Shown here: positions 13,772-27,585 of the stretch, one piece after another
How positions within the stretch are numbered: the stretch's first letter is position 1
Layout: the number at the start of each line of letters is the position of its first letter
Assembly (NCBI RefSeq): GCF_022414575.1
Contig: NZ_JADWYQ010000023.1
Location: forward strand, 42,732 to 106,731
Length of the DNA: 64,000 bases
Direction of reading: 5' to 3'
From: Streptomyces sp. MUM 178J
GTDB taxonomy: Bacteria > Actinomycetota > Actinomycetes > Streptomycetales > Streptomycetaceae
The notes under the pieces: model-generated
What the model was told of the DNA's origin: nothing
Seen by the model: only the letters and a program-made list of their open reading frames with translations
The model's database searches: none
Translations under genes and position numbers: made by a program

Positions 13772-14079
13772 TTTCCCGGCAGGTTCGCCTGCGACAGATA
13801 GGCCGCGGCCCTGCGCAGGACCTCGTTCTCCTGTTCCAGCAGCCGGATCCGCTTGCGGGCCTCAGCCAGCTCCGCAGCCTCGCTCGTCGCCGAGGCGGAC
13901 CCAGCGGCCGGGGTCGCCTCGCCGCGCTCCTCGGCCTCGGCACGGCGGATCCACTTCGTCAACGAGGCGGGATGCACGCCGAAATCGGCGGCGATCTGTT
14001 CCAGTGTGACGCCGGGCTCGCGGCTTCGCGCGACCCGCACAACGTCCTCGCGGAACTCCTTCGGATACGGCTTGGGCAT
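13768..14079 (-). CDS. IS3-family OrfA (helix-turn-helix and leucine zipper)
   Basis: A 103-residue protein with an N-terminal HTH (REDVVRVARSREPGVTLEQI, then DFGVHPASLTKWIRRAE), an Ala/Glu-rich linker and a C-terminal coiled coil (EARKRIRLLEQENEVLRRA). This is the OrfA architecture of the IS3 family. It ends GGA-AAA-TGA overlapping ATG of orfB; a -1 slip on the A-run would fuse OrfA to OrfB. Confidence 0.93.
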   Translation of the reverse strand: MPKPYPKEFREDVVRVARSREPGVTLEQIAADFGVHPASLTKWIRRAEAEERGEATPAAGSASATSEAAELAEARKRIRLLEQENEVLRRAAAYLSQANLPGK

Positions 14080-14116: not shown

Positions 14117-14884
14117 TCAGGTGTCACCCAACCCTGCAGCAGTCCCGACTGCACCCTCCCCGACCAGCAATTCGTTGACACAGCGCCTCATCCGCCCCAA
14201 AAGGTCGAGCCGAGCTGTGTGATCCTGAAAGAGGTGATCCCCCCTCTCCACGACTTCGACACCGATCCCTTCCTCCTGAAGATGCGAAGCGCGCGATGCA
14301 CCACGGTCGTTACTCCCGACGATGACTCGGACAGGGATACCGCGGGCTAGTAGCGCTCCCCGTGGGCGGCACCTACTCAGATCTTCAGCGAAGCCGGGCG
14401 GCAGATCATGCTCTGCTTCCCTGGCCCAACGAGGCGGCCAGGGACGGGCGTCACCGTCCGCCAGATCGCTCGAAATGGCGATGACTCCGCAGGTCCGAGG
14501 CCCAGTGAGCGCACCCTGCGCCGCCGCAATGGCCCCTAGGCTTATCCCACAGTAGATCAGGGGCAGATCGGCATACTTCTTCAGGTGGACCCCTTCCGCA
14601 ACCGCACGAACATCCTGCGCCATTGTCGAGACAGTCGGCTGTCCGGGCGCAATGGACGAGTCGCCGCAGCCTCTGGCGTCGAACCGGGCCACGGCGATCC
14701 CCGACTCGGCGAGCGTCTCGGCGAGCTGGCGTTGCAAGCCGCCAGGACCCAGCATGTCACCCGTTAGGCCGTGGCAGATGATAACGAGGGCGCGCGGGTT
14801 CGCTGGTGCATTCAGTGTGCAGGCGATCCACTCGGTTTCGCCCAACTGAGTCAGGAACTCCGACGACGTCGCTTCGAGCCTCAT
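14117..14884 (-). CDS. Alpha/beta hydrolase, last gene of the peptide operon
   Basis: A 255-residue serine hydrolase. Oxyanion-hole strand: ALVIICHGLTGD. Nucleophile elbow: YCGISLGAIAA (G-x-S-x-G). Acid: VIVGSNDRGAS. Catalytic His: ERGDHLFQD. The triad is complete, so it should be active. It resembles serine aminopeptidase/hydrolase_4 proteins. Its start overlaps the preceding pyrophosphatase-like gene (ATGA), placing it at the 3' end of the long operon. In a pathway without a recognisable leader peptidase, it is one candidate for peptide cleavage or ester hydrolysis; that is inference. An IS3 element begins about ten bases after the stop, so further downstream genes may have been lost. Confidence 0.85.
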   Translation of the reverse strand: MRLEATSSEFLTQLGETEWIACTLNAPANPRALVIICHGLTGDMLGPGGLQRQLAETLAESGIAVARFDARGCGDSSIAPGQPTVSTMAQDVRAVAEGVHLKKYADLPLIYCGISLGAIAAAQGALTGPRTCGVIAISSDLADGDARPWPPRWAREAEHDLPPGFAEDLSRCRPRGALLARGIPVRVIVGSNDRGASRASHLQEEGIGVEVVERGDHLFQDHTARLDLLGRMRRCVNELLVGEGAVGTAAGLGDT

Positions 14885-15270
14885 GGCGCGGGTACCGGTT
14901 CCGGGCGCCGGACCACCAGTACCGCCTGGGGCTGCGGGGAATAGAAGCGGTCAATGAGGTCGATCTCGGCTTCGTTGCAGTTCCAGACGATCTTCACTTC
15001 CGAATTCATCTTGACTGGATCAAACGTACAGAGCAGCGCGGTGGTGCCCAGGCCGAGCGTCTGGCCGACCCAGATGTCGATCCCCGAGTCATCTCCGCCG
15101 TCGGTCCCTTCTACATAGCCGTAATCGAGTGGATACACATACTCCGGCACTTTCGGGTGCCCTGTACCACCTGCACGGTCAATGGCGATCGATCCGCCCT
15201 CGACGAGACGGTCGAAGTGCTCCCAGATCGACATACGCGCGTACTCGACGATCTTTTCCTTGGATAGCAC
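14881..15270 (-). CDS. Inorganic-pyrophosphatase-like small protein
   Basis: A 129-residue protein. The central segment PEYVYPLDYGYVEGTDGGDD followed by SGIDIWVG matches the core of family I soluble pyrophosphatases, where YPxDYGxxxGT and DxxxxDxxV supply metal-binding acids. It is shorter than the usual 165-175 residues and some canonical acids are not obvious, so it is a divergent member or uses another phosphoanhydride. Pyrophosphate is released by adenylating and nucleotidyl-transfer enzymes encoded in the same operon, so a role in pulling those reactions forward is plausible. It overlaps the following hydrolase gene by four bases. Confidence 0.7.
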   Translation of the reverse strand: MLSKEKIVEYARMSIWEHFDRLVEGGSIAIDRAGGTGHPKVPEYVYPLDYGYVEGTDGGDDSGIDIWVGQTLGLGTTALLCTFDPVKMNSEVKIVWNCNEAEIDLIDRFYSPQPQAVLVVRRPEPVPAP

Positions 15271-15303
15271 CTTGCCTGCGCCTTTCTTTGGTGATCTCGC
15301 TGT

Positions 15304-16056
15304 TCACATCAGGTCTTGCCGAGTGGCCGTCTTCGGGCCGGCCACGGAGTGCGCGAGGACTCTGCTGCGCGGCAGCCGACCGCCTTCGACGTAGTAGCGG
15401 CAGGTGGCCGTCGCCCGCTCCCCCGGGGTGTCAGCGGCGAGTGGCGTGGTCCAGTGGACGAGCTCGGCGTGCTTCATGACGAGGAGGTCCCCTTGCTGCA
15501 GATCAGCCTCCGTGCCGTCTTCGAAGACTAGGGCGCCACCGTACTCTGCGGGAGGCGCGGCAACACAGATCATGATCTGGTAGTCGCCCGTGGTGTCATC
15601 GTGAGGTGCGATCGAATCGCCGGCGCCATACCGGTTCACCCAGCGCCGTGTTGTGATGGTGTTCTCAGCGAAGCTGGCGATCTCCGCGATCCCGGCGATG
15701 AATCCAGGGGCTAGACACAGCGCTGAGAACGGGTCCTTGGCCGCTGTCTCGGCCAGCGGGAGGTACTCGTTGTCGATGAGATCGATTTGCCACTTGCCCT
15801 CTGCCGCTTCGACCCGCTCGGTCACGATGGTGGTGCGTTCACGTAGGAACAGGTCGAGGTCGGCACAGATCCCCTTGGGGAGGAATCCCTTGAGGTGCCC
15901 GATGGAGGTCTCAGCCACCTGGGTGGCGAGCCCTTCCCGCGCGTCGCGTATCCGGTCTCCGGCAGCGAGGACCTCTGTCGCTATGCGCCAGCGTGCGGCT
16001 GAGTCCTCCTTGCAGAGGTAGTCGGCGAAGGTCTGCGCCTCGTCACTGGTCCACAT
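15304..16056 (-). CDS. 2-oxoglutarate/Fe(II)-dependent oxygenase
   Basis: A 250-residue protein with a jelly-roll oxygenase C-terminal half. The iron triad reads H152-x-D154 in SIAPHDDTTGDYQ and H201 in ELVHWTTPL. R220 in TATCRYY is at the place of the 2OG-binding Arg, and GGALVFEDGTE and LQQGDLLVMKH are the typical strands of the prolyl-4-hydroxylase-like group. It would hydroxylate or desaturate a peptide residue or sugar in the pathway. It sits mid-operon between an alpha/beta-hydrolase-like gene and the pyrophosphatase-like gene, with short gaps and GAGCGAAC-type ribosome sites. Confidence 0.82.
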   Translation of the reverse strand: MWTSDEAQTFADYLCKEDSAARWRIATEVLAAGDRIRDAREGLATQVAETSIGHLKGFLPKGICADLDLFLRERTTIVTERVEAAEGKWQIDLIDNEYLPLAETAAKDPFSALCLAPGFIAGIAEIASFAENTITTRRWVNRYGAGDSIAPHDDTTGDYQIMICVAAPPAEYGGALVFEDGTEADLQQGDLLVMKHAELVHWTTPLAADTPGERATATCRYYVEGGRLPRSRVLAHSVAGPKTATRQDLM

Positions 16057-16083
16057 GGTTCGCTCCTTGCTGTGAGAAGACGG

Positions 16084-16734
16084 TCACACACAGAGATTCA
16101 GCATGCGTGTGCAGAGTTCCGCGCGTTGCGTGCGCGTCAGGTGCGTCGGCTCGTCGAGGAACCACGCATGGGCTGGGGCCGGCGCTTGATGGGCGCACAG
16201 TTCGAGCTCACACAGGACCTCAGGGACGTACTCGATCCCGCCCGCGCAGCGGGATTCGATACCAAGATCCTCGATGACCACCTCGAAGCCGCCCTGCACA
16301 TGGTCCGCTGGCCTGAACGGTTGGCCGATGCCGACAGCGCTCAGCAGCCGGCGTACGGTCTCTGGGCCCACCGGCCGCACTGCGACCAACTCGTAGTCCG
16401 ATGTCGCCGGTACGGTCAGTGCGGATGCACCACGAGCGACCACTATGACGCGGTTGGCTATGGTGCGCAGATAGGCGATCGCTGCTGCCGCCTGTCGTCG
16501 CCACTCTAGGGGCGATTGAACCCCTGAATCGTTGCCGCATCCGGACATCTCGGGTCGTAGGCAGGCGATGCCTTGCCCAGTCAGCGCACGGGCCAACTCC
16601 GCCCAAAGGTAGTTAATGCCCGAGCGGGGCTCCCCCATTCCGGGAAGGACCAGCACAGCTGTATCCCGCGTGCCCGCATGCCACAGGACCGGTCGCTGGA
16701 GACCTGGGACTCGGAGGAACAAGGGGGCGGTCAC
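16084..16734 (-). CDS. Alpha/beta-hydrolase-fold protein with degenerate nucleophile elbow
   Basis: A 216-residue protein with the hydrolase-fold start TAVLVLPGMGEPRSGINYLW and ACLRPEMSGCGNDSG. At the nucleophile elbow it reads VIVVARGASALTV, where the expected G-x-S-x-G Ser is Gly. No clear catalytic His motif follows, only QAPAPAHAWFLDEP. It may therefore be a non-catalytic scaffold, or use a different residue. Its start overlaps the stop of the thymidylate-kinase-like gene by four bases. The operon contains a second, fully equipped alpha/beta hydrolase, so a duplicated and then specialised pair is possible. Confidence 0.65.
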   Translation of the reverse strand: MTAPLFLRVPGLQRPVLWHAGTRDTAVLVLPGMGEPRSGINYLWAELARALTGQGIACLRPEMSGCGNDSGVQSPLEWRRQAAAAIAYLRTIANRVIVVARGASALTVPATSDYELVAVRPVGPETVRRLLSAVGIGQPFRPADHVQGGFEVVIEDLGIESRCAGGIEYVPEVLCELELCAHQAPAPAHAWFLDEPTHLTRTQRAELCTRMLNLCV

Positions 16735-17351
16735 AGGACACCGGCCAGGGAAGCGATCGAGGCTGCCACCACGTCCTCGACGGGTGCGGTGCCGTCGATC
16801 TGTGACACCTGGCTCGTCCGGGCCAGCACGTGATCGAACTCTCGGGCTGCCCTGTGAAGCAACGGGAGTTGGTCGAAGACGCCCTGTGACTCCCCGCGCG
16901 AGGCGATCCGCGACATCGCCGTGTCCGGGTCCACCCGGATGTGGAGAGTGCGGTCAGGGGTGGGCAGCGCGTCGAGGAGTGGCGCAACCGCCGACAGGTC
17001 GATACCGAAGACCGCCTGGTTGGCGAGGTGGGAGGCAAGGTACCGGTCGCAGACGACCGTACGGCCCTCGGCCAAAGCAGGAATCACCTCGTCGGCCACC
17101 ATCCCGACGAAGGAGTACGTCAGGTGCACCGCATAGATGTCCAGGTGGGGCTGCATGCCTGCGGTGGCCGTGCCGGACAGTCGGGCCGCGCTCTTCAGGC
17201 GGGCCAGACCGGGCTGTCCGGCCGCAAGCGGGCGGAGTACGACTGCGGTCCGGCCTGTCTCGCACAGGTGGTCGGCCAGGCGGGCGGCGACGGTGGACTT
17301 GCCAGAACCGTCGATCCCTTCGACCACAATGAGTCTGCCAGGGTTGCTCAC
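16731..17351 (-). CDS. Thymidylate-kinase-like P-loop kinase
   Basis: A 206-residue protein with a Walker A LIVVEGIDGSGKST at residues 7-20, the DR(Y) motif VVCDRYLASHLANQ, and a lid-like region RIASRGESQGVFDQ. This is the dTMP kinase fold and length. A housekeeping tmk is expected elsewhere in the chromosome, so this copy likely serves the pathway. It could phosphorylate a nucleoside monophosphate or a peptide-bound phosphate. It is the first of two nucleotide-kinase-like genes in the operon (the other is at 20935-21621), overlapping the next gene by four bases. Confidence 0.85.
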   Translation of the reverse strand: MSNPGRLIVVEGIDGSGKSTVAARLADHLCETGRTAVVLRPLAAGQPGLARLKSAARLSGTATAGMQPHLDIYAVHLTYSFVGMVADEVIPALAEGRTVVCDRYLASHLANQAVFGIDLSAVAPLLDALPTPDRTLHIRVDPDTAMSRIASRGESQGVFDQLPLLHRAAREFDHVLARTSQVSQIDGTAPVEDVVAASIASLAGVL

Positions 17352-17381
17352 GTCGACTCCCGGTTCGGATGGTTGCGCTGT

Positions 17382-18410
17382 TCAGAGCCCATGCCGCAGG
17401 AACTCCTCGTCGACCTCTGGGATGTCCCGGGCGCCGACGGCCGCGAAGTGACGGACGGTTTGTCGTGACGTGTCGACGGCGAACTGCGTCACCACTCCCG
17501 GTGTGAACGTTTCCTCGGTCACCTGGACCGCAGCGTCACGCGTGAGGCCGTAGGTCATCAGTTCGGACTGTACGGCTGAGCAGTCCGGGTTCAGGAAGGC
17601 ATGGATCAGCTGCGGCACCAGCAGGCCGGCGGCGCGTCGCTGGGTCTGCGACAGCTGGCTGTACAGGTGACGCAGGAACAGTGCGAAGTAGGTGTGGTGG
17701 CGTCCTTCGTCCATTGCGTGGTCTTGGACCACTTGCCTGACGGCCGGCACCAGGGACTCTTCATCAGGCAGTTGGCTGAGGGTCGCCGAGATGAGGGTCT
17801 CAGAAACGATGACGAACAGCATCTCCGCCAACGGGCGGAGTCCTGGTTCGAGTTGGCTCTGAATCTCGTGGAGTCGTCGCAGGAAGTACGGCTGGTTGGG
17901 CAGCAGAGGCTGGACGCCAGTGCGGCGGACCGCCTGCTCCATAAGGTCTGCCGAGAAGAGCCCGTGATACGCCTCATCGCAGTAGATCTTGTGCGCGTCC
18001 AGTCGCATCTGGGCAGGAACGTCGACCCCGGTCGTGTTGTAGGCGATGGCCAGCACGGTGCGGTTGACGACCAGGTGCTCCAGCTTCATGGTGAAGTCGA
18101 GATACCGGTATAGGTGCTGGATGAGGATGTGGTCCTGCACCTGTGCGGGCAGCGCCTTCACCAGAGGGTGGCCGGCCACCGGAACTAGCTCTGGTGAGAA
18201 GTACTGCTTTCCCTCGTCCTCGTCGGCGATGAGCCGCCTGGGCGTGGAGCGCACACTCGATCGCTCGTACCAGCTGCGGAACGGGCTCGAGTAGGACTCG
18301 TCCGCCAGCTCAGGCCGCGTGTCTTCCGTGCTCACCGCGTTCAGGATCTGCTGCTTGGGGCAAGCGAGCGCCAGCTCACAACCCACGAACAGCCCGATGA
18401 TTCCACACAT
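17382..18410 (-). CDS. AurF-type diiron oxygenase
   Basis: A 342-residue protein of the p-aminobenzoate N-oxygenase (AurF) superfamily. All seven expected iron ligands are visible with AurF-like spacing: E111 (MKLEHL), E146 and H149 (CDEAYHG), E204 (IVSETL), H231, E235 and H238 (QDHAMDEGRHH). Relatives oxidise amines to hydroxylamines or nitro groups, or hydroxylate carbon. The start ATG 18410 has AGGAGG ten bases upstream. The N-terminal 70 residues are an extra, poorly conserved segment beginning MCGIIGLF. In this operon it would tailor the peptide or an amino sugar/nucleoside building block. Confidence 0.9.
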   Translation of the reverse strand: MCGIIGLFVGCELALACPKQQILNAVSTEDTRPELADESYSSPFRSWYERSSVRSTPRRLIADEDEGKQYFSPELVPVAGHPLVKALPAQVQDHILIQHLYRYLDFTMKLEHLVVNRTVLAIAYNTTGVDVPAQMRLDAHKIYCDEAYHGLFSADLMEQAVRRTGVQPLLPNQPYFLRRLHEIQSQLEPGLRPLAEMLFVIVSETLISATLSQLPDEESLVPAVRQVVQDHAMDEGRHHTYFALFLRHLYSQLSQTQRRAAGLLVPQLIHAFLNPDCSAVQSELMTYGLTRDAAVQVTEETFTPGVVTQFAVDTSRQTVRHFAAVGARDIPEVDEEFLRHGL

Positions 18411-18443
18411 GGTAGATCGACCTCCTTTCTCCCCGGTTCGATA

Positions 18444-19703
18444 TCAACTGACAGCGGCGCTCGCGTTGTGGACGGGGCTCCGCTCTTTGCGGCCCTCCGC
18501 GTGGAGCAGGACCGCCGCTCCGAGTCCCAGGACCGAGCCGACCGCCATGATGATCAGGGCCGGGGTGGTGTCGGTGCCGGCCAGACCGAAGGTGAGCGGC
18601 GGCCCGCAGAGCAGGCCGAGACTGTAGGCGAAGGAGATCGCAGCGCCGTAGCGTCCCTTGAGGCGCGCTGGGCTGAGCTTGGCTGCCAGTGGTTTCAAGC
18701 TGGGGGCGACCAGCACTTCAGGGAGGGCAAAGTAGGCTCCGTAGCAGGCGACCAAGACCCAGCGCAGTGGGGAGCCGTGGTCCTGCAGGCACACAGCCAA
18801 CAGTGGGATGCCTGCTCCCCACAGGACGAAGGCGAGGGCCAGGGCCTTCGGTTCCTTGATTCGCTGCGCGAAGGCTCGTGCCCGCCCGCCGATGATGAAG
18901 ACGGCCACCCCGTTGCTGGCGATGAGCACTGATGCCATGGCAGCCGCGTCGGCAACGGATGCCTGTAGGAGTGCAGGGACGACCGTGTCTAGTTGGGCCA
19001 TGGCAAAGGCGACCACGCAGAACTGTACGAGCAGCAGCGGAACGAACCGCCGGTCGCGGTACGGCGTGAGTACCGACCCTGGGCGCGTGCCGCTGTCTGG
19101 TGCGGCCTCGGAGGCGCGGAGGGTGGTTCCCCTGGAGATGTAGGCCAGAACTCCGGCGAACAGGAGGAAGGTGAGCCCGTTGGCCATGATGAACCAGCGC
19201 AGCATGTTGTCGCCCATGCCGCTCACGAGGATTCCGGAGAATAGCGCCGGGACAGCGACGACAAGGTTCGCCACCCGATGCTGGGCGGCGAAGATCCGCG
19301 GGAGCGCCTCTGGCCCCAGCACCCGTTCCAGGAAGGCAAGTTGGCTGCTGAAGAACAGTTCATTGGACAGGCCGATGAGGACTGCGCTGACCAGCGGCCA
19401 GGGCCAGTGCGTAAACGCCGAGAGCGCCATCCAGCCGGTTGCCTGACCTGTCATCGCCAGGAGTAGCATGGAGCGCGAGCCGAACCGGTCCACCAGGTGT
19501 CCCGCGACAGGGTTGAACAGCAGGCCCGTCACGGCGAGCGTACCGAAGTAGACTCCGAGCTGACTGGCAGTCAAGTGGCGGGCGCTGGTGAGGTAGATGA
19601 CGGTGAGGGGCAGCACGAGGCCGTTGCCGATGGCCGAGAGCATGTAGCCGCCGAGGTACGCCCGCATCCGGCCGTCCCACCGAGTTGCTGCTGCTGTCGT
19701 CAT
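18444..19703 (-). CDS. MFS transporter, likely product exporter
   Basis: A 419-residue major-facilitator protein with about 12 hydrophobic helices. The loop 2-3 motif is GHLVDRFGSRSMLLLAM, the MFS signature (G-x-x-x-D-R-x-G-R type). The first helix (GGYMLSAIGNGLVLPLTVIYL) and the drug-exporter-like repeated half are evident. The start ATG overlaps the preceding gene's stop by four bases. It is the only transporter in the operon, so export of the mature product and self-resistance is the likely role. Substrate specificity cannot be read from sequence. Confidence 0.92.
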   Translation of the reverse strand: MTTAAATRWDGRMRAYLGGYMLSAIGNGLVLPLTVIYLTSARHLTASQLGVYFGTLAVTGLLFNPVAGHLVDRFGSRSMLLLAMTGQATGWMALSAFTHWPWPLVSAVLIGLSNELFFSSQLAFLERVLGPEALPRIFAAQHRVANLVVAVPALFSGILVSGMGDNMLRWFIMANGLTFLLFAGVLAYISRGTTLRASEAAPDSGTRPGSVLTPYRDRRFVPLLLVQFCVVAFAMAQLDTVVPALLQASVADAAAMASVLIASNGVAVFIIGGRARAFAQRIKEPKALALAFVLWGAGIPLLAVCLQDHGSPLRWVLVACYGAYFALPEVLVAPSLKPLAAKLSPARLKGRYGAAISFAYSLGLLCGPPLTFGLAGTDTTPALIIMAVGSVLGLGAAVLLHAEGRKERSPVHNASAAVS

Positions 19704-20845
19704 GCGCGGACCTCGAAGGGGGCGGGCGCAGCCGGATAGCGGTGGCTGAAGCAGGGCTTGGCGATCCGGACGTCCTCGTAGCGGTGGCGTTTCTCCGCGG
19801 GGTCTTGGGCACGCAGCTTGGTCTTGCGGAACTGGTCGAGGTCGATGCGCCGGCCGGCACCTACCACGATCTCGGGCAGGCGTGTGGGGTGGACGCCGAT
19901 CTGGACGCGCATCTTCTTCAGGTACTCGATCTGCTTGATGATGCAGTAGCTGCAGTCGAGGCAGACCTCGATGTTCTCCGACCAGGCGAACCAGGACGAT
20001 GTCGCTTCGAGCTTCCGCTCTCCGGTGGGGATGGTGAGCAGGTTGTAGTTGCTCTTGAGGTTCTCGATGAATATCTCAGCGCGGGTCAGCATGCGCAGGA
20101 AGTTGATGTCGCCAGTCGTTCCCTCGGCCAGGACGATCTGGTTGTCGGACACGGCGAACTCGTAGCCGAGTTCGGCGACGACTTCCAGGTTCCTGGGGGC
20201 GCCCAGGTCGTGCACCCAGCACTCGGTGCCGTGCAGGTGAGCGGCTGCACAGCTGGTCTTATGGAAACTGCGCACACGGGCCTCGTCGCAGTAGGCGACC
20301 AGTTGGTCCTCGACGGGGATCTGGATGCGCTTCTTCTTGTACGGGTCGTGGAGTCCTCCGAGGACGAGGTATCCGGTGTGCTCGGCGGCTACCTCGACGA
20401 AGCGGCGCAGCGTGGCCGGGTCGTCGTTCTGCCCCCGGATGATGGGGCGTGTGAAGACCAGGGTGTTCGGGAACAGCGCCCTGAGCTCCTTGATCATCCG
20501 GACTCTGTCGTCGAAGGAGATGCCGCCTTCGTCGAGAGCGGTCAGCGAGTAGTACACGACGATCTGCTGGAGGTGGGAGACGGTCTCGAGCTTCCGGAGC
20601 ACCTCAGGGTCCGGCCCTGCCTTGGTGAAGATCGCCAGGGGGGCTCGGTGGAACCGCAGTTCCTGCAGTTTCGCGATGGTGTTGTCGACCTGTTCGGGGA
20701 TGAACGGGTCGCCGTAGGTGTCGTTGATGGAGGTGGGGATGGACTGTGCCCACTCGGGCGCTCCCGGCTCAAGCGTCATGACGGGATCACGGGTGATTTC
20801 CGGGGCGTTGATGACGGTGAGCGGAAGCTTGTTTGTCGTGGTCAT
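19700..20845 (-). CDS. Radical-SAM-like TIM-barrel protein lacking the N-terminal Cys cluster
   Basis: A 381-residue protein from ATG 20845 with TAGGAGG just upstream. The order of segments looks like a radical SAM barrel: DTYGDPFIPEQVDNTIAKLQ, APLAIFTKAGPD, IVVYYSLTALDE, TLVFTRPIIRGQND and TGYLVLGGLHDPY. The canonical CxxxCxxC loop that should follow strand 1 is absent, and residues there read PTSINDTYGDP. A cysteine triplet, CLDCSYC (C-x2-C-x2-C), occurs instead near residue 295, with further Cys at YCDEA, SCAAAH and TECWVH in the middle. It may be a degenerate barrel, or one that binds a cluster elsewhere. I could not assign a reaction. Confidence 0.6.
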   Translation of the reverse strand: MTTTNKLPLTVINAPEITRDPVMTLEPGAPEWAQSIPTSINDTYGDPFIPEQVDNTIAKLQELRFHRAPLAIFTKAGPDPEVLRKLETVSHLQQIVVYYSLTALDEGGISFDDRVRMIKELRALFPNTLVFTRPIIRGQNDDPATLRRFVEVAAEHTGYLVLGGLHDPYKKKRIQIPVEDQLVAYCDEARVRSFHKTSCAAAHLHGTECWVHDLGAPRNLEVVAELGYEFAVSDNQIVLAEGTTGDINFLRMLTRAEIFIENLKSNYNLLTIPTGERKLEATSSWFAWSENIEVCLDCSYCIIKQIEYLKKMRVQIGVHPTRLPEIVVGAGRRIDLDQFRKTKLRAQDPAEKRHRYEDVRIAKPCFSHRYPAAPAPFEVRA

Positions 20846-20934
20846 GCGGCCTCCTAGGCCAGGGCGTTCATGAGGGCAGAGCAGGACGTGTGCGGGACCG
20901 CTCGATGCGCCCAGTCGAGGCGCTCGGCGAGGAT

Positions 20935-21621
20935 CTACCGGGAAGAAATCACGCGCGCCTGGTCGAGCACATGGCGGGCGGCGTCTTCGAGATCACCGCT
21001 GTTGTCCACGGTGATGTCGTGCGGCAGGGCAGGGGTGATGGAGGTTTCGGTGCTGTGTTTGTCTGACGCAACGTCGCGGCCGCCGTCACGCTCCAGCAGT
21101 CGTCGTCGCCGGATGCCGTCGTCCACAACCACGTGGACGGTGTGGAAGCCGTGTTCCCGAAGCAGAGACAGCTCGTCGGGATAGCGGCAGTCCGTCACAT
21201 AGACCGGGACGCTCTCGGGGATCTCTTCGAGCTGCGCGACCATGCACCGGATCCAGTGGAGGGGTTCCTCGCGGCGTCGGACATCGGCACCCCACCACTG
21301 GAGGAGTTGTCGCGGCAGGCCGTAGCGGGGAATGCTGCCCGCCAGAGACTTCTGTGCAGCGATCACTCGCTCGACGGCGGCGGCGGCAGTATCTGCGTCC
21401 ACCTTGAGGCGCTGCCGCACCGCCTCAGCTGCCGCGCCGGGGTCGGCCGCATGCGCACTGACCTCCTCAGCCAGCGCCCGTGCCTCCGCGACGACGTGCT
21501 CGCCGAAGGTGAGTCTCCGTGGGGTGACGCCGAGCATGGAGTAGACCGCGCATGCCACGCTGTCCTTTCCGCTGCCGCTGCGCCCGGAAAAGGCCAGGCG
21601 CAGTTGTTCAGACCGCGGCAC
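20935..21621 (-). CDS. Deoxynucleoside-monophosphate-kinase-like P-loop protein
   Basis: A 228-residue protein with a Walker A LAFSGRSGSGKDSVACAVY near the N terminus, a YGLPRQLLQWWGADVRR segment, VPVYVTDCRYPDELSLL (Walker B-like, acidic) and a C-terminal VDNSGDLEDAARHVLDQA tail. This is the pattern of phage-type deoxynucleotide monophosphate kinases. Its 5' end overlaps the glycosyltransferase gene by 14 bases. After the TAG stop (20937-20935) the same frame continues for 26 sense codons, including ERLDWAHRAV, to a second TAG just before the next gene's ribosome site, so the original protein may have been longer. Confidence 0.78.
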   Translation of the reverse strand: MPRSEQLRLAFSGRSGSGKDSVACAVYSMLGVTPRRLTFGEHVVAEARALAEEVSAHAADPGAAAEAVRQRLKVDADTAAAAVERVIAAQKSLAGSIPRYGLPRQLLQWWGADVRRREEPLHWIRCMVAQLEEIPESVPVYVTDCRYPDELSLLREHGFHTVHVVVDDGIRRRRLLERDGGRDVASDKHSTETSITPALPHDITVDNSGDLEDAARHVLDQARVISSR

Positions 21622-22795
21622 GGCAGTCGATCCGTTCCGGTATCAGCCAGCCCTCCCGGCAACCGCGGGCGAAGGCGAGATGATGGGCTAGGCCGGCGTA
21701 ACCCGTGACGGTCTCGAAGTACAGCGGGTGCAGCGGGTCTACCTCCAGTCGTCCGACCGCATCCTCGGTCAGGAACGGCGGGAAGCGCCGGGCCGCGTCG
21801 AGGAAGAAGGCTTCCGCCTGGGCGTAGTCACCTCGGGCCTGGGCAACTACGCCCCGGTTAATGACCGCGTGCAGGAGCGTCGGCTCTGTCTCGATCACCT
21901 CGGCGAACGTCCGGTCAGCCGCGTCGAGATCCCCGTCCGCGGTCTGGCAGACGCCCACCATGTTCTTCAGTGAGGCATCTCCGGGCCGCAGCGACAGGCC
22001 CTTCTCGTACGCTTGCCGCGCTTCCTCGGCCTTCCCAGCAGCCCTCAGGACGTGCCCGTGAAAGGCCCAGACGGTGGGGTTGGTGCCGTCGATTCCCAGC
22101 GCCTTCTCGCTCCACTGCACGGCTTCATCGAACCTGCCGAAGAGCCGCAGATTGAGACCGATGTATCCCGTGAGTACGGCGTCATCCGGCTGGTCAGCAA
22201 GCTGCTCATGCATGAGGGACATGTATCGGATGGCCTTCGCATCACGCTCGGACCGCGGCCGGGCGTGGCCGATGTGCGTCAACAGGGCAGAGCTGTGGAC
22301 GATGCCCCAGTTGTCGCGAGCGAGCGCGGGCTTCACCGACTCATTGATCTTGCGCTCGTACCTGATCTGCGGCCTGGAACGGAAGACCTTGAGTTCACGC
22401 CCGGTGTAGAAGCCACCGGTCGGGAAGAAGTTGTAGCGCAACAGTGTGATCCCCCCGACCTGCGGGCCGGCAGTCTCGATGGCCTCGCGCAATGGCTCCA
22501 CCTGCCCGGTGTGCAGCCGTTCGTCCGCGTCCAGGAAGAACACCCAGTCCGCGTCACCCACCAGGGACAACGCGTGGTTGCGGGCCTCGGAGAAATCCCC
22601 GCTGAAGGGGAAGTCCGCGACTTGGTCCGCCAACTGTTCCCCAATGGCCCGCGTGCTGTCATGGGAGCCGGTGTCGACCAGGATCAGCTCGTCGCAGATC
22701 TGCCGCATAGAACGCAGAGAGTCGGCAAGGAAGCGCTCCTCATCCTTGGCGATGACGCAGCCGACGATCCGGGGCGGGGTTCGGGTGTCGCTCAC
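21608..22795 (-). CDS. Family 2 glycosyltransferase with C-terminal TPR domain
   Basis: A 395-residue protein. The N-terminal 230 residues are a GT-A glycosyltransferase: VGCVIAKDEERFLADSLRSM, ELILVDTGSHDSTRAI, NHALSLVGDADWVFFLDADE (the DxD metal/nucleotide site). The remainder is tetratricopeptide-like (DEAVQWSEKALGIDGTNPTV, KAEEARQAYEKGLSLRPGDA, AADRTFAEVIETEPTLL). The SPBC2-type GT2-TPR architecture is known for peptide-modifying S-/O-glycosyltransferases and for polysaccharide enzymes. It is flanked by overlapping genes on both sides. In this operon it is a good candidate for direct glycosylation of the peptide. Confidence 0.88.
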   Translation of the reverse strand: MSDTRTPPRIVGCVIAKDEERFLADSLRSMRQICDELILVDTGSHDSTRAIGEQLADQVADFPFSGDFSEARNHALSLVGDADWVFFLDADERLHTGQVEPLREAIETAGPQVGGITLLRYNFFPTGGFYTGRELKVFRSRPQIRYERKINESVKPALARDNWGIVHSSALLTHIGHARPRSERDAKAIRYMSLMHEQLADQPDDAVLTGYIGLNLRLFGRFDEAVQWSEKALGIDGTNPTVWAFHGHVLRAAGKAEEARQAYEKGLSLRPGDASLKNMVGVCQTADGDLDAADRTFAEVIETEPTLLHAVINRGVVAQARGDYAQAEAFFLDAARRFPPFLTEDAVGRLEVDPLHPLYFETVTGYAGLAHHLAFARGCREGWLIPERIDCRAAV

Positions 22796-23850
22796 TGCAC
22801 TGGCTCCTGGTTCGTGATGCGCTGGTGCTTCTCCACCATCGACTGGCCGACTCTTTGCCAGGCAGCCTCGGGGAACAGAGCGATGCGCTGTGTCTCGGGC
22901 AGCGCCGCACAGGCTGCGGCAAGGGTCGGCGAGGGGCGTGAAGAGATGGCGTAGACAGTGACGTCGGGATCAGACAGAGCAGGCAGGCCCCGCAGTTCGT
23001 CGAGACCGGCCGTGTCTTCAAGCCGGGTGACGACGGCGTGCGGCGAGTGGGCGGGCGGTCCCGCGAACTCCTGGAACGCTGCGAGGAAGTCACCGCCCTT
23101 GGACGGGTCAAACACCTCCGAGAGAAATCCGTACGTGGCGGCTCTCGGGTGCCGTTCCACCAGACGGTTCAGGTTGCTCCGCCAGCCCTCAAACCGCTCG
23201 GGGGTCATCGTGCGATCGTGGTACTGGTGATCGCTGTCGACTCCGAGGGCAAAGGACCAGATGGCACCGGCGTCATCCAGCCGTAGACCGAGTTCGATGT
23301 CCTCAAGTCCCCAATGGCGAAAGGCCGAGTCGAAGAAGTCGCCGTTGGCCAGCTGTACCTGACCGAGGAGCCCTCGGGGGACGGAGAGGACACAGGAGAA
23401 GCACAAGGCCCAGGGTGCGGGATGCCGGGCAAGGTTGTACGAGTAGAGTTCGCCGAGGAGTTCCCTGCTGTCTCGCCGGGGCTGCTTCGCGGCGTCCTGT
23501 GGCGGCTGCATCTGTCGTCGCAGCCCCACAAGGACCAGATTCTTCTGCACCTGCTGATGCGCGGCTGCCAGCGCATCAGGGAAGCTGTTGTCGACGACGA
23601 TGTCCGCGTCGAGGAAGATGATCCGCTCACCGGAGGCCGCACGGATCCCCTCATTGCGTGCGGCCGCGGGCCCCTGGTTGTTCGTCAACCGGATCACGCT
23701 GCAGCCGTGGGCCGCGGCAACCGCCGCGGAGTTGTCCGTTGACGCGTCGTCCACGACGATGACCTGGCAGTCGGACCGACCGGCCCATGGGCGCAGGGTG
23801 GCTGGCAGCATGGGGGCGCGATTGTGCACCGGGATGATCACTGAGTACAC
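22792..23850 (-). CDS. Family 2 glycosyltransferase
   Basis: A 352-residue GT-A fold protein: YSVIIPVHNRAPMLPATLRP, QVIVVDDASTDNSAAVAAAH, NNQGPAAARNEGIRAASGE, RIIFLDADIVVD (DxD), and a galactosyltransferase-like second motif HWGLEDIELGLRLDDAG (ED acid). It resembles GT27/GT2 glycosyltransferases that add a hexose or hexosamine to a protein or lipid acceptor. The C-terminal 100 residues (after FDPSKGGDFLAAF) are not conserved in the core fold. Four-base overlap with the next glycosyltransferase suggests the two act in sequence. Confidence 0.88.
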   Translation of the reverse strand: MYSVIIPVHNRAPMLPATLRPWAGRSDCQVIVVDDASTDNSAAVAAAHGCSVIRLTNNQGPAAARNEGIRAASGERIIFLDADIVVDNSFPDALAAAHQQVQKNLVLVGLRRQMQPPQDAAKQPRRDSRELLGELYSYNLARHPAPWALCFSCVLSVPRGLLGQVQLANGDFFDSAFRHWGLEDIELGLRLDDAGAIWSFALGVDSDHQYHDRTMTPERFEGWRSNLNRLVERHPRAATYGFLSEVFDPSKGGDFLAAFQEFAGPPAHSPHAVVTRLEDTAGLDELRGLPALSDPDVTVYAISSRPSPTLAAACAALPETQRIALFPEAAWQRVGQSMVEKHQRITNQEPVQ

Positions 23851-23883
23851 GGGCCACCTCTGCTCGTGCGGCGCGCTAGGGCG

Positions 23884-24174
23884 TTACTCATCGTCGCTCC
23901 GCAGCGTCAGCAGTCCGTGTTCGACCAGTTCCATGAGGGCTTCGGCCGTGTCGTCGACGGCTTCGCCGACCGGCACGTCGTACTCCTCAGAGATCAGTGC
24001 GCCGATATCGCGAATGGTCCGACTCCCGTCGATCATCTTCCAGATGTCGAGGATGACGCCTTCCAGTTCGAAGACGTGTTCCGGACCGGCCACGGTGAGC
24101 TTCCCGCGAGACTTCCTGATGCGGACGTCAAGCCTGGGCACAGGCACCGAGTTCGCAAGAGCCTGGTGGCTCAT
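23884..24174 (-). CDS. PqqD-like RiPP recognition element (RRE) protein
   Basis: A 96-residue stand-alone PqqD-fold protein: three N-terminal strands (RLDVRIRKSRGKLTVAG, HVFELEGVILDIWKMIDG) and helices TIRDIGALISEEYDVP, VDDTAEALMELVEHGLL. Such proteins, called B1 in lasso peptide clusters, bind the leader of a ribosomal precursor, contacting the YxxP motif. The precursor in this operon carries Y4-I-K-P7. Its start overlaps the preceding NTase-like gene by four bases. This gene is the strongest sign that the operon makes a ribosomally synthesised, modified peptide. Confidence 0.9.
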   Translation of the reverse strand: MSHQALANSVPVPRLDVRIRKSRGKLTVAGPEHVFELEGVILDIWKMIDGSRTIRDIGALISEEYDVPVGEAVDDTAEALMELVEHGLLTLRSDDE

Positions 24175-24965
24175 GGGCGTTCCTCGATCTCGACCTCGGA
24201 GGCAACCTTGCGGCAGAACATGACGACTTCCTCAACCCACTTGCCCGGAGCTGCGGGGTCGAGGGATTGCATCGACTCCAGGGCCCAGTACTCATCAAAA
24301 GAGACCTCGGGCGGCGCCGCGATGCGGTAGCGGCGGGCCCGCCACTTCGGGCTTCCGCCGAACTCGTCGTGACTCGCAAGGAGGGCATCGACGGAGAAGC
24401 CGAAGGCGATCCGGGCGGACAGCACCGCGCTTTCGATGTCGCCGCTCTCCATCTGGCCGACGGCATCTTCGACGGCGACATCGGCGAAATTGAGCCCGCG
24501 CGCCACCAGGGAGGCACGGTAGGCGGAGGTGCGCAGGTCGGCGACCCGTCCGGTGAGCCACTCCTCGCCCGTGATTGCGCGCGCGTAGGTCAAGCGCTCG
24601 AGGAAGTCGATTTCGTAGGAGGTCAGCCGGCCGCCAGCGATCTGTCCGGTCTCGTACTCGTCCCATGTGACCTTAGACAGGACCTGGTCAACCTGGGCGT
24701 CCATCCAGTACTCGACGTCCCAGCGGCACCCGTCGACGGTCAGGATCTCAACAGAGAGGGTGTCGGGACGCAGCGCGATGGGGTGCGGGTTCGTGGTGGG
24801 CCGCTGCCACTGCTCGTCGCCGGTGATGACATAGATGTTCAGGTTGCTCGCGGCGTTTCCCCACCCCCGGACACGCGACCCGGAGAGGTACACCGCCTTG
24901 TACGTATCCGGCAGCAATCCATGGGTTCGGAGGTCTTCGAGGGTAATCAGTGGAGTATCATTCAT
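24171..24965 (-). CDS. Nucleotidyltransferase-fold protein with altered catalytic acids
   Basis: A 264-residue protein. The start YKAVYLSGSRVRGWGNAASN continues LNIYV, which aligns with the MNT/polymerase-beta motif GS-x-x-x-G-x-x-x-S-D-x-D. Here both acids of the D-x-D pair are Asn (N-L-N), confirmed in the DNA (AAC CTG AAC). A helical C-terminal region follows (LTSYEIDFLERLTYARAITG and a HEPN-like run). Nucleotidyltransferases of this family occur in lasso peptide clusters such as those of paeninodin and pseudomycoidin, where they act after a kinase. With the acids lost, this copy may be non-catalytic or use another metal site. Confidence 0.78.
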   Translation of the reverse strand: MNDTPLITLEDLRTHGLLPDTYKAVYLSGSRVRGWGNAASNLNIYVITGDEQWQRPTTNPHPIALRPDTLSVEILTVDGCRWDVEYWMDAQVDQVLSKVTWDEYETGQIAGGRLTSYEIDFLERLTYARAITGEEWLTGRVADLRTSAYRASLVARGLNFADVAVEDAVGQMESGDIESAVLSARIAFGFSVDALLASHDEFGGSPKWRARRYRIAAPPEVSFDEYWALESMQSLDPAAPGKWVEEVVMFCRKVASEVEIEERP

Positions 24966-25009
24966 GGTTGTTTCTTCCGATACGTCGAAGGCTCATGGAC
25001 AGGGGCCGG

Positions 25010-27196
25010 TCAGCTCACCAGTAGTCCCGTTTCGGCACTCTCGTTGATCAGTGGCCAAATGTCGTCGAGAGTGCAGCCGGCTTCGGCTGCCGCCTCCTTC
25101 AGAGGCCGGACACCGTCGAGTGCCTGCAGGAACCTCAGCCAGCCCCCGTCCTCGCGCTCGTTGATCTCAAACTCGAGTTGTCCGTCCACCGAGACGAGCC
25201 AGTTGTCCGGCGCGGCATGCTGACGTAGGAGCAGGACACCTTCGCCGAGGGACAGCACGCTTGCTTCCGTCAGTCCTGAGCTCCGGATCACGACCGCTTC
25301 GATCCTTGAGGACTCCGATGCCCAGTCAGTCACCTTGAGCGACACAGGTGTGTCACCGGCAGGCGCGGTAGCGGGGTGGGCAGGTAGCTCACGGACCATG
25401 TTGTCCAACAGGCCCATGTTGATAAGCCGGAGCAGCTGCTCGGGATGACCAGCGTCGGGATTGCGCTGGAGTCGTGACAGGTAGGCCCGGATACCGTCTG
25501 CGTCCAGAAATTGTCTGCCGCCGGTACCAGCGAGCGCCTCTTCCACGAGGGCGGACTTGTCCTGCGTCAGCATCTGGGTGAAGACGAGATACGTCTGCCG
25601 CACTCCCTCACCGTGATAGAAGGGAACCTTCGGGCGGTCCACGTACCGGTCAGGGACGACCCCGCGCATCGCCTCTCGGACAATCCGCTTGTCCCACAGG
25701 AGCCGTTCCCTGCTCCGCTTCGGAATGGCCGCGACCAGTTCCACCAGCCGACGGTCGAGGAACGGAACCCTTGCCTCGATTCCGTTTCCTGCCGCTGTGC
25801 GATCCTCTTGCCAGCAGTTGTACTGCTGGATGTCCAGGAACTTTCGGTGGACGAATGCAGCATAGGGATCTGCGAAGATGACGTCCGTCGAAGAGCGGAG
25901 CACTTCGGGCGACACAAGGCCAGCCGCCTCCGGCATCCACCAGGTGGCCAGGTCCCCCCGGGACGTCAGCGCATGCTGGACCGCCATCTCCCGCAGGGTC
26001 GCAGTGGCACCGTCCCAGGTGCCGTCCTCAGAGAGGAGCGTGGTGTAGCCGCCGAGGAACTCGTCGGCTGCCGCTCCGAGCAGCATGCCCTTGATCTCCG
26101 GGTGGTTTTCCCGCACATAGCGGTGAAGCTTGTACTTGTAGAACTGCTCGGGGCCACACATCGGCATTTCGGTAAGCCAGAGGAGTCGTCGCCAGTCTTC
26201 GACACCGGGAACTTCATCGCCCGGGAACACGACCTGATGGTTGGCGATTCCCAGGTGCCGAGCCAGCGTATGAGCGTTCTCCGCATCACCGTTGATGAAC
26301 GTGCTCCCGCTGAGCACGCTAAAGGTCTGCAGGTTCCCGGACGTCGCCGCGAACGCGGCCACGGCCGCCGAATCGATTCCGCCGCTGAGGAAGAGGCCAA
26401 TCTCCGTGTCGGCCGTTGCGCATTCCCGGACTGATTCCTCGAGGAGGCGTCGGAGCTCTTCGATGAAGTAGGCATCAGTAGGCCCATCGGACTCATCGAA
26501 CTGGGGCATTTCCCAGTATCTGTGTTTCCTGGTCTCACCGGAACAAAGATCAATATCAAGGATAGTCGCTGATGGGACTGCCTCGACGCCGTTGAACCAC
26601 GTCACGAAATCTCCGCTGCCGAGGGCAGCGGCGCCGGCGAACGAGCGGTTGGCCAGAGTTCCGACCCAGTCGAGCGAGCGAGGACAGTCCGGGTCCTGGA
26701 ACAGGGCCTTGATCTCGGAAGAAAACACGATGCGCGATGCATTACGCGCAAAAAAGAGAGGTTTGACCCCGAACTGGTCTCGCGCGAGGATCAGCCGGTT
26801 CTCTTTACGGTCCCAGAGAGCCAGGCCGAACATCCCCCGGACATCGTCCAAGAACCGCAGGCCGTGCCGCTGGTAGAGATGGACAAGCACTTCACAGTCC
26901 GACCCTGTGCGCATGCGCACGTCGGGCATCTTGGCTTCCAACTCCCGGTGGTTGTAGACCTCTCCGTTGGCAATGAGGACAACATTGCCATCCGGGCTCA
27001 CCAATGGCTGCCCGCCGCCCGTAGGGTCCACAAGCGACAGTCGGGTGAAGGCAAGCCCGACGGGCCCCTCACGCAGGATCCGCTCGTCGTCCGGTCCGCG
27101 GTGAGCTAGGGCTTGCGTCATCGCCTGAAGTACGCGATCAGCATCGGGCTGCAACTCGCCACCGCCGAGCCGGGCTATTCCAGCCAGACCGCACAT
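25010..27196 (-). CDS. Asparagine-synthetase homologue with C-terminal winged-helix extension
   Basis: A 728-residue protein. Residues 1-210 are an Ntn glutaminase domain with the nucleophile C2 (MCGLAGIARL), RGPDD, ANGEVYNHRELEAKM and GSDCEVLVHLY. Residues about 240-620 are the ATP-dependent synthetase domain with the PPi-loop LFLSGGIDSAAVAAFA and NGIEARVPFLDRRLVELV. The last 100 residues (WLRFLQALDGVRPLKEAAAE, IWPLINESAETGLL) form an extra small domain resembling a PqqD/RRE winged helix. Lasso cyclases (C proteins) are homologues that adenylate an Asp/Glu side chain, but here the glutaminase Cys is kept and the precursor has no acid residue. Amidation of a peptide carboxylate is one alternative. 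It lies 112 bp after the precursor, behind a strong hairpin. Confidence 0.9.
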   Translation of the reverse strand: MCGLAGIARLGGGELQPDADRVLQAMTQALAHRGPDDERILREGPVGLAFTRLSLVDPTGGGQPLVSPDGNVVLIANGEVYNHRELEAKMPDVRMRTGSDCEVLVHLYQRHGLRFLDDVRGMFGLALWDRKENRLILARDQFGVKPLFFARNASRIVFSSEIKALFQDPDCPRSLDWVGTLANRSFAGAAALGSGDFVTWFNGVEAVPSATILDIDLCSGETRKHRYWEMPQFDESDGPTDAYFIEELRRLLEESVRECATADTEIGLFLSGGIDSAAVAAFAATSGNLQTFSVLSGSTFINGDAENAHTLARHLGIANHQVVFPGDEVPGVEDWRRLLWLTEMPMCGPEQFYKYKLHRYVRENHPEIKGMLLGAAADEFLGGYTTLLSEDGTWDGATATLREMAVQHALTSRGDLATWWMPEAAGLVSPEVLRSSTDVIFADPYAAFVHRKFLDIQQYNCWQEDRTAAGNGIEARVPFLDRRLVELVAAIPKRSRERLLWDKRIVREAMRGVVPDRYVDRPKVPFYHGEGVRQTYLVFTQMLTQDKSALVEEALAGTGGRQFLDADGIRAYLSRLQRNPDAGHPEQLLRLINMGLLDNMVRELPAHPATAPAGDTPVSLKVTDWASESSRIEAVVIRSSGLTEASVLSLGEGVLLLRQHAAPDNWLVSVDGQLEFEINEREDGGWLRFLQALDGVRPLKEAAAEAGCTLDDIWPLINESAETGLLVS

Positions 27197-27267
27197 ACTT
27201 ACCGCCCCACACTTTCTCTTTAGTCCAATACCGCCGACTGTCGGAACTGGCGCAATGCATCTGAATG

Positions 27268-27300
27268 CTGTTGGCGCCCTGATCTCCAGGGCGCCAACAG
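27268..27300 (-). terminator. Strong hairpin between the peptide gene and the asparagine-synthetase gene
   Basis: CTGTTGGCGCCCTG and its complement form a perfect 14-bp stem with a 5-base loop (27282-27286), eight bases after the precursor stop. There is no U-tract on the minus strand. In RiPP operons such a structure usually attenuates transcription or stabilises the short upstream mRNA, so that more precursor than enzyme is made. Confidence 0.8.
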
Positions 27301-27307
27301 CAGACCA

Positions 27308-27376
27308 TCAGTGGTTGTTGGCGATGATGGAGCTGAAGCCCGTCTTCTTAGCCTGCGGCTTGATGTACTTCTTCAT
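27308..27376 (-). CDS. 22-residue RiPP precursor peptide candidate
   Basis: The minus-strand ATG at 27376-27374 opens a 22-codon frame with AAGGGGGG nine bases upstream. Residues 1-12 read MKKYIKPQAKKT, and the rest is GFSSIIANNH before TGA. Y4-I-K-P7 is the YxxP motif used by lasso-type leaders to dock on the RRE protein, and a Thr just before the hydrophobic end also recalls lasso leaders. Unlike a lasso precursor there is no Asp or Glu anywhere, and the presumed core is only nine or ten residues and ends Asn-Asn-His. It is the first gene after a promoter and is followed by a strong hairpin. An in-frame GTG three codons upstream lacks spacing from the ribosome site. Confidence 0.75.
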   Translation of the reverse strand: MKKYIKPQAKKTGFSSIIANNH

Positions 27377-27444
27377 TCGACACACCCCCCTTCACAAAAT
27401 GAATTCTGTGGGGATGCATCGAGAAGTTTACCCGCGAGTAGGTC

Positions 27445-27477
27445 TCAAGCGTGGGTAATTAGCGGCACCACGCTTGA
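27445..27477 (-). promoter_or_regulatory. Inverted repeat in the 5' leader of the peptide operon
   Basis: TCAAGCGTGG (27445-27454) and CCACGCTTGA (27468-27477) are perfect 10-bp arms around a 13-base loop. A second small hairpin, CCCCC-GTCGCC-GGGGG, lies at about 27514-27529. Both are between the promoter and the precursor ribosome site and could be a regulator site or an mRNA structure controlling translation. Confidence 0.6.
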
Positions 27478-27556
27478 AACTAAAGCCCCCGCAAAGAGAT
27501 AGTCATCTCGAAACCCCCGTCGCCGGGGGATCTAAATCCACCCCGACTGGTGATCG

Positions 27557-27585
27557 ATCTTGGGGTGCAATCCAAAGCCTGTCAA
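27557..27585 (-). promoter_or_regulatory. Sigma70-like promoter of the peptide operon
   Basis: On the minus strand TTGACA (27585-27580) is followed after exactly 17 bases by CAAGAT (27562-27557). The -35 box is a perfect consensus match and the -10 has four of six. It gives a leader of about 170 bases before the 22-residue peptide gene, containing two hairpins. Confidence 0.6.

Follow-up and report, generated by a model that had tools for sequence, protein, structure and literature searches.

We analysed a 64,000-nt stretch of Streptomyces sp. MUM 178J (the window, on contig C23 of a 6.6-Mb genome). It carries an operon for which the production of a ribosomal peptide of an undescribed class of ribosomally synthesised and post-translationally modified peptides (RiPPs) is well supported. 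The operon consists of 14 protein genes and a gene for a 22-residue peptide, all on the minus strand, from 27376 to 14117. By their coordinates, neighbouring genes overlap or lie at most 111 nt apart, the gap between the peptide gene and the gene for a homologue of asparagine synthetase B (AsnB) included. The core is formed by the 22-aa peptide, the AsnB homologue, a PqqD-type RiPP recognition element (RRE), a nucleotidyltransferase-fold (NTase) protein and an AurF-type oxygenase. These were found together in 12 of 12 loci, that is, the window and 11 others, which are all the examined loci whose AsnB is of this type and of full length (about 720 aa). The best reading, drawn by analogy with known clusters and given a probability of about 0.45, is that the C-terminal amide of the peptide would be N-oxygenated to a hydroxamate, and the product then decorated by a swappable module. 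An earlier note on this DNA had described a RiPP-type minus-strand operon with a YxxP peptide. The operon and all genes named in it are where that note placed them, and the peptide is real: a conserved small precursor gene beside an RRE and modifying enzymes was observed in every core locus.

The precursor gene (27308-27376), encoding MKKYIKPQAKKTGFSSIIANNH, starts with ATG at 27376 and its stop codon ends at 27308; AAGGGGGG stands immediately 5' of it. Since 22-aa homologues are present in the 11 related loci, this is not a chance open reading frame (ORF). All are in frame, and thus the loss of the precursor in relatives, named in the earlier note as grounds for dropping the proposal, was not seen. 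A profile built from the first 8 peptides gave 50-55 bits for the members; the best other small ORF scored 6.2 bits among 6839 scanned, a set into which some loci were entered twice. All 12 peptides are exactly 22 aa long. Positions M1, Y4, K6 and P7 are invariant, so that each leader has the Y-x-K-P motif; YxxP is known as an RRE recognition motif (PMC12710340). K3, K10, G15 and V17 are nearly invariant, the window having S15 and I17. Residues 19-22 have no majority residue: the last four are ANNH (window), KNNV, RDTA, RDNA, TNVC, GSVV, VTTR, STVV, GLKV, RETA, AAEV and RGTA. Aspartate and glutamate are entirely absent from four of the 12 precursors (window, L023, L026, L076), which for the window agrees with the earlier note, where an Asp/Glu isopeptide was excluded. 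The precursor had no match in Pfam or NCBIfam.

The core loci were reached by several routes. A tblastn search with AsnB against 72,556 plasmid records matched 8: three from Streptomyces (L014-L016) at full length with 48-52% identity, and five enterobacterial at about 31%. In each of the three Streptomyces plasmids, a 22-aa ORF preceded by a good ribosome site lies 88-105 nt ahead of AsnB. A DNA pattern of the first seven codons of the precursor matched 5 of 394 family genomes, own included, and a reversed-pattern control matched none; the four non-self matches (L023-L026) all have a 22-aa peptide beside AsnB, NTase, RRE and AurF genes. In the class, 2 of 394 genomes matched, own included, the other being L028, which has the core, with about 6 kb between AsnB and the peptide gene. 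The count of 5 in 394 is a lower bound, as the pattern missed L062 and L076 although their genomes were scanned. These two came from a search for AurF in 200 genomes, which gave 16 non-self loci; only these two had AsnB, RRE and NTase genes, and both had a 22-aa gene. The remaining 14 had neither the full core set nor the peptide within about 10 kb on each side. The core and a 22-aa peptide were also found on a contig of Actinoplanes sandaracinus (L007/L043), reached through the operon protein P0008 without use of the peptide. AsnB was looked for in seven genomes (L002-L007 and L012, with L008-L010 left out), of which only that of Actinoplanes had a full-length match (52%), the precursor lying just outside L007, in L043; other AsnB matches in these genomes stop near residue 530 or earlier. 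Thus six of the 11 relatives (L014-L016, L007/L043, L062, L076) were found independently of the peptide, and the co-occurrence search proposed in the earlier note returned precursor, RRE, AsnB and AurF together in all 12 core loci.

The AsnB homologue (25010-27196, 728 aa) has a glutaminase domain with Cys1 (GATase_7, 1.4e-39), a synthetase domain (PF00733, 1.4e-57) and a C-terminal domain. Identity among the 12 core loci is 45-87%, and all 12 proteins begin with MCG. Cys1, SGGxDS and the lysine of WDK, which we take to have their usual functional roles, are kept in the 8 sequences aligned. The window protein matches the asparagine synthase model TIGR01536 (337.5 bits, cut-off 267.1) and misses the lasso/macrolactam-cyclase models NF033535 (188.1 vs 525 bits) and NF033561 (59.8 vs 300). 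The hydroxyamidotransferase 7YLZ, which we take to be TsnB9, aligns in one piece with residues 1-527. E. coli asparagine synthetase B aligns in three pieces with a nearly equal total score (149.7 and 151.1 bits for the two), so that TsnB9 does not stand out by score. To judge from hhalign, the one method behind this likeness, the last 115 or so residues probably resemble an RRE (probability 81, E 1.2e-5, 63 columns). The discrete RRE (23884-24174, 96 aa) matches PF05402 at 1.2e-11.

The AurF-type diiron oxygenase (P0006, 17382-18410, 342 aa) matches PF11583 at 1.2e-33. The columns that we take to hold the AurF metal ligands are intact in 10 sequences from nine loci, the window protein having been aligned to the AurF structure 3chh. 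The ligand pattern fits 116 of 120 among the proteins listed (best 120 of 301). A further feature of this protein is an N-terminal motif of about 18 aa, CGxxG[LMI]FxGCx3-6CP (18357-18410), followed by a variable linker. It is present in 102 of the 120 AurF proteins listed and in the core-less AurF loci L063-L065, and absent in L015, L016, L025, L028, L007 and L076. The NTase-fold protein (24171-24965, 264 aa) was recognised through its homologues, some of which carry PF01909; it has no Pfam match of its own. The SDxD motif is kept in 8 of the 9 loci aligned and in 118 of 120 among the proteins listed (best 120 of 195). The exceptions are one fragment and the window, which has NLN (24837-24845). 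With the metal-binding aspartates lost, the window protein is probably catalytically dead, that is, a likely pseudoenzyme kept in the operon, and its role may be structural. Of the NTase named in the earlier note, the fold is present and the metal-binding aspartates are not.

We infer the chemical steps, the leader/core boundary, the peptidase and the export from the genes. The YxKP leader of the precursor would be bound by the RRE and, probably, also by the AsnB tail that resembles one. AsnB would then adenylate the C-terminal carboxylate, the only carboxylate on the window precursor: in the four peptides without Asp/Glu, AsnB, if it acts on the peptide, must act on the C-terminus. The carboxylate would be turned into an amide, or would accept hydroxylamine from hydroxylated glutamine, as with TsnB9. 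N-oxygenation by the AurF-type enzyme would lead to a peptidyl hydroxamate at the C-terminus. The last four residues, which vary (ANNH in the window), could be cut free within a short C-terminal fragment by a peptidase, for which the S33-type hydrolases are candidates. Module 2, with a radical S-adenosylmethionine (SAM)-like protein, two GT2 enzymes, kinases and a 2-oxoglutarate (2OG)-like enzyme, may decorate or cap the product, and the MFS protein (18444-19703; PF07690, 5.6e-27) may export it. A C-terminal hydroxamate is the most economical reading, given the C-terminal chemistry of asparagine synthetase (AS)-like enzymes in RiPPs and the hydroxamate precedent of AurF/AsnB pairs.

The earlier note had listed the tailoring genes as one set. 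The gene content argues instead for an operon of two separable modules, with tailoring genes swapped between strains. Module 2 comprises GT2 glycosyltransferase a (22792-23850; GT2, 1.6e-26; homologues in L002, L005-L007), GT2 glycosyltransferase b with TPR (21608-22795; GT2, 6.9e-13; homologues in L002-L007), a deoxynucleotide monophosphate kinase-like protein (20935-21621; PF21448, 1.7e-9; homologue in L002), P0008 (19700-20845), a thymidylate-kinase-like (TMPK) protein (16731-17351; PF02223, 1e-25; homologues in L002-L007), an alpha/beta-hydrolase-like protein (16084-16734; weak PF12697, 0.012; homologues in L002, L005, L006) and an S33-type alpha/beta hydrolase (14117-14884; PF12146, 2.5e-16; homologues in L002-L007), possibly a leader peptidase or an esterase. 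The TMPK, GT2a, GT2b, S33 and second-hydrolase neighbours of P0008 recur in loci of Streptomyces, Actinacidiphila and Paenibacillus, which have no AsnB core within the fetched stretch. GT2a is fused to a cytidylate-kinase-like domain (by eye) in some P0008 loci, and Streptomyces monashensis (L002) has an NTase-RRE fusion, also recognised by eye, instead of the AsnB core. Actinoplanes sandaracinus joins both modules in the order AurF, RRE, NTase, P0008-like, hydrolase-like, TMPK, GT2a, S33, GT2b, PEP-utilising enzyme (by eye), MFS, pyrophosphatase-like and then precursor-AsnB. The presence of both gene sets on this contig shows that the operon does not consist of unrelated units, which the earlier note would have taken as refutation.

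Elsewhere the same core adjoins other genes, taken here without defined cluster borders, so that some may not belong: amidinotransferase, phosphotransferases and GMC oxidoreductase in L014; PEP mutase, aconitase and LanM in L015; radical SAM, aminotransferase and formyltransferase in L016; aminotransferase, OTC, NDK-like and formyltransferase in L024. In an unrooted tree of the 12 AsnB proteins, Actinoplanes groups with L015/L016/L076 (support 0.999) and the window with L014 (0.98). The peptide ends (LR[DEG][TN]A) follow the AsnB tree and not the module, which speaks for a stable peptide core whose tailoring modules are exchanged. The fuller proposal, a RiPP class with a C-terminal peptidyl hydroxamate warhead, an RRE-guided AsnB/AurF pair and modules (glycosyl/kinase, aminocyclitol-like, phosphonate-like) interchanged by gene exchange, is put forward tentatively. 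As a separate observation, a LanM gene (annotated at L015:12554-15427; by eye at L007:18633-21020) is divergent beside AsnB, and the precursors of these two loci contain Thr and no Cys.

Several points weigh against the hydroxamate. The product would be deduced from genes and by analogy, and AsnB is explained equally well by hydroxylamine transfer and by simple amidation of the asparagine-synthetase type. The last residue varies widely (H, V, A, C, R) and would demand a permissive amidating enzyme. AurF is a broad family: no core lies near 14 of the 16 AurF loci, and L063 and L064 lack it although their AurF proteins are more than 50% identical to a core AurF. The window AurF is likened to TsnB7, MatA and ActI at the level of the family. 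The trichostatin cassette also includes a TsnB6-type helper, which the mat and act clusters are reported to lack (PMC5719088, PMC13418202). The NTase-fold protein has no clear role in the scheme and is probably dead in the window. Finally, the functions of module 2 are guesses, with no proven link to a hydroxamate.

Of two main rivals, one would be a peptide-warhead ligase: AsnB activates the peptide C-terminus and couples it to a small molecule that bears an amine and comes from the swappable module, as in a carrier or Trojan horse, with AurF and NTase modifying the small molecule. Such a scheme would account for the same core standing beside aminocyclitol-like (L014), phosphonate-like (L015), radical SAM/aminotransferase (L016) and GT2/kinase (window, L007+L043) sets, labels read from annotations, and for peptide and AsnB relationships that do not track the module. 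However, the MCG start of all 12 AsnB proteins and the glutaminase-domain match in the window are expected for ammonia rather than for an external amine, and AurF is retained whatever the module, so that we consider a ligase rather unlikely. The other main rival, plain C-terminal amidation or nitrilation by AsnB, as by TsrC, ScdTA and PesC, with AurF hydroxylating another site or molecule, is likewise doubtful. Both reactions are proven for AS-like enzymes in RiPPs (PMC13060819), but AurF is found in 12 of 12 loci, the AurF-like/AsnB-like pair has a hydroxamate precedent, and the scan of 15 products gave no match to an MNIO family.

A small ORF followed by a hairpin could also be the regulatory leader peptide of a transcription attenuator, the operon product being then non-peptide. 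Indeed, a strong hairpin lies within 60 nt past the stop codon in 12 of 12 loci. In the window (27248-27307) it has -34.9 kcal/mol and no long U tract. In ten loci the 60 nt 3' of the stop codon fold at -30.7 to -43.2 kcal/mol, none of 200 mononucleotide shuffles being as low in any of them (0/200 in the window); L062 has -37.1 kcal/mol (0/200) and L076 -26.6 (1/200). The stem sequences differ between loci. RiPP operons often have hairpins behind their precursor genes. An attenuator is very improbable: what is conserved in the YxKP motif is the amino-acid sequence, each of the 12 loci has an RRE, and about 6 kb separate peptide gene and AsnB in L028. The last alternative, a degenerate lasso pathway, would explain the YxxP leader, the discrete RRE and the AsnB homologue. 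It was rejected as next to impossible: no B2 transglutaminase-type protease was matched in Pfam/NCBIfam among the 14 operon proteins, as the earlier note had maintained, an isopeptide is excluded for the four precursors without an acceptor Asp/Glu, and AsnB scores 188 against the 525 bits required by NF033535, whereas it passes TIGR01536 (337 vs 267). Thus the earlier description 'lasso-like' holds for the leader and the RRE only, and the telling pair AsnB and AurF points to C-terminal amide or hydroxamate chemistry.

Among the closest known systems are TsnB6/7/9 (trichostatin A, benzohydroxamic acid), MatA/MatC and ActI/ActJ. AurF-like and AsnB-like enzymes build the trichostatin hydroxamate and are proposed to do so for matlystatin and actinonin (PMC5719088, PMC13418202), and they share with the window the pairing of an AurF-type oxygenase with an AsnB-type enzyme, which in them acts on a carboxylate. 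However, their acceptors are polyketide, aromatic or acyl units, whereas the window has a ribosomal precursor together with an RRE, and its AsnB ends in an RRE-like tail. In the nitrilobacillins (PesC), TsrC and ScdTA, an AS-like enzyme acts on the C-terminal carboxylate of a ribosomal peptide, as would be expected for the window. The pes clusters contain MNIO and alphaKG-HExxH enzymes, and the window instead AurF, the NTase-fold protein, a discrete RRE and a precursor of 22 aa that has no Asp/Glu. Lasso peptides share with the window the YxxP leader, the discrete PqqD-type RRE (B1) and the AsnB homologue (C); the window differs in that no B2-type protease was matched, in the lack of an acceptor Asp/Glu in its precursor, in about four variable C-terminal residues and in AurF, present in all 12 loci. 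In the open literature, among the matches listed, we found no RiPP with an AurF enzyme, no ribosomal peptide hydroxamate and, as the earlier note had held, no described class with this gene set. The individual parts are familiar from that literature, which seems to contain no description of their combination, of the precursor family or of the modular arrangement.

Two enterobacterial plasmids, of Rahnella (L017) and Cronobacter dublinensis (L044), resemble the window in having a 22-aa YAKP peptide, annotated PqqD and MFS genes and an AsnB homologue (about 31%). They differ in an annotated methyltransferase, with an additional cupin in L044, and in having no annotated AurF or NTase; in L017, the one of the two searched by tblastn, neither was found. 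The peptide (L017:4257-4325, L044:4210-4278) reads MKKTYAKPR...GGH, ends in SAGGH or SVGGH and lies ahead of PqqD, methyltransferase, MFS and the AsnB homologue. This set is possibly a sister class.

Hydroxamates are strong metalloenzyme inhibitors, as in actinonin, matlystatin and trichostatin. If the hydroxamate reading is true, the warhead would sit on a genetically encoded, re-programmable 22-residue scaffold, and genomes could be mined for further members by the signatures of a short peptide and its gene neighbours. The core beside different gene sets offers a test of how RiPP cores recruit small-molecule pathways; it also suggests what some of the uncharacterised AS-like RiPP enzymes, about 300 in number (PMC13060819), might be.

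Most enzyme classes named in the earlier note have Pfam support; the 2OG oxygenase, the second hydrolase, the pyrophosphatase-like protein and the radical SAM protein are weak or below cut-off. The 2OG-Fe(II) oxygenase-like protein (15304-16056; homologue in L002) scores 2.6e-4 with PF13640 (22.3 bits, below the cut-off of 27), and the inorganic-pyrophosphatase-like protein (14881-15270; homologues in L002, L007, L008) has a weak match to PF18823 (0.073). An IS3-type transposase pair (12881-14079, minus strand; PF01527, the second ORF recognised by eye) borders the downstream end of the operon. The GC content is 0.61-0.66 over 14-28 kb and 0.65-0.75 in the remaining 2-kb steps of the window; both observations fit an acquired island. 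A scan for sigma-70 promoters and terminators gave chance level only.

P0008 qualifies as a radical SAM-type barrel, its PF04055 score being 26.0 bits, below the cut-off of 29.5. It lacks CX3CX2C after beta-strand 1, as seen by eye in a 25-row alignment, and the PF04055 match begins at profile position 49. Cysteines C186, C199, C209 and C295xxCxxC301, the latter near the C-terminus, are invariant in that alignment; by its residues P0008 is possibly an Fe-S protein with an unusual arrangement. The position of the C-terminal CxxCxxC, behind a predicted strand, had suggested a circularly permuted barrel, which was not supported: two rearranged sequences reached 26.2 and 26.5 bits with PF04055, the native order 26.0. 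A database search with P0008 gave 71 proteins at E<=1e-3, itself included, and it is present in 1 of 396 phylum and 2 of 394 family genomes, own included. No match was found in plasmids, and PDB sequence searches with P0008 and P0012 gave nothing at E values up to 1. P0008 was rejected as a RiPP-core marker, since 0 of 9 GTDB stretches with P0008 passed the precursor profile. The P0008-module loci without the AsnB core contain a DUF402-like protein (by eye; L005:3924-4427, L006:3855-4358, L003:6758-7276), and those of Paenibacillus also M16-type peptidase genes (by eye). These loci perhaps represent a second carrier system for module 2.

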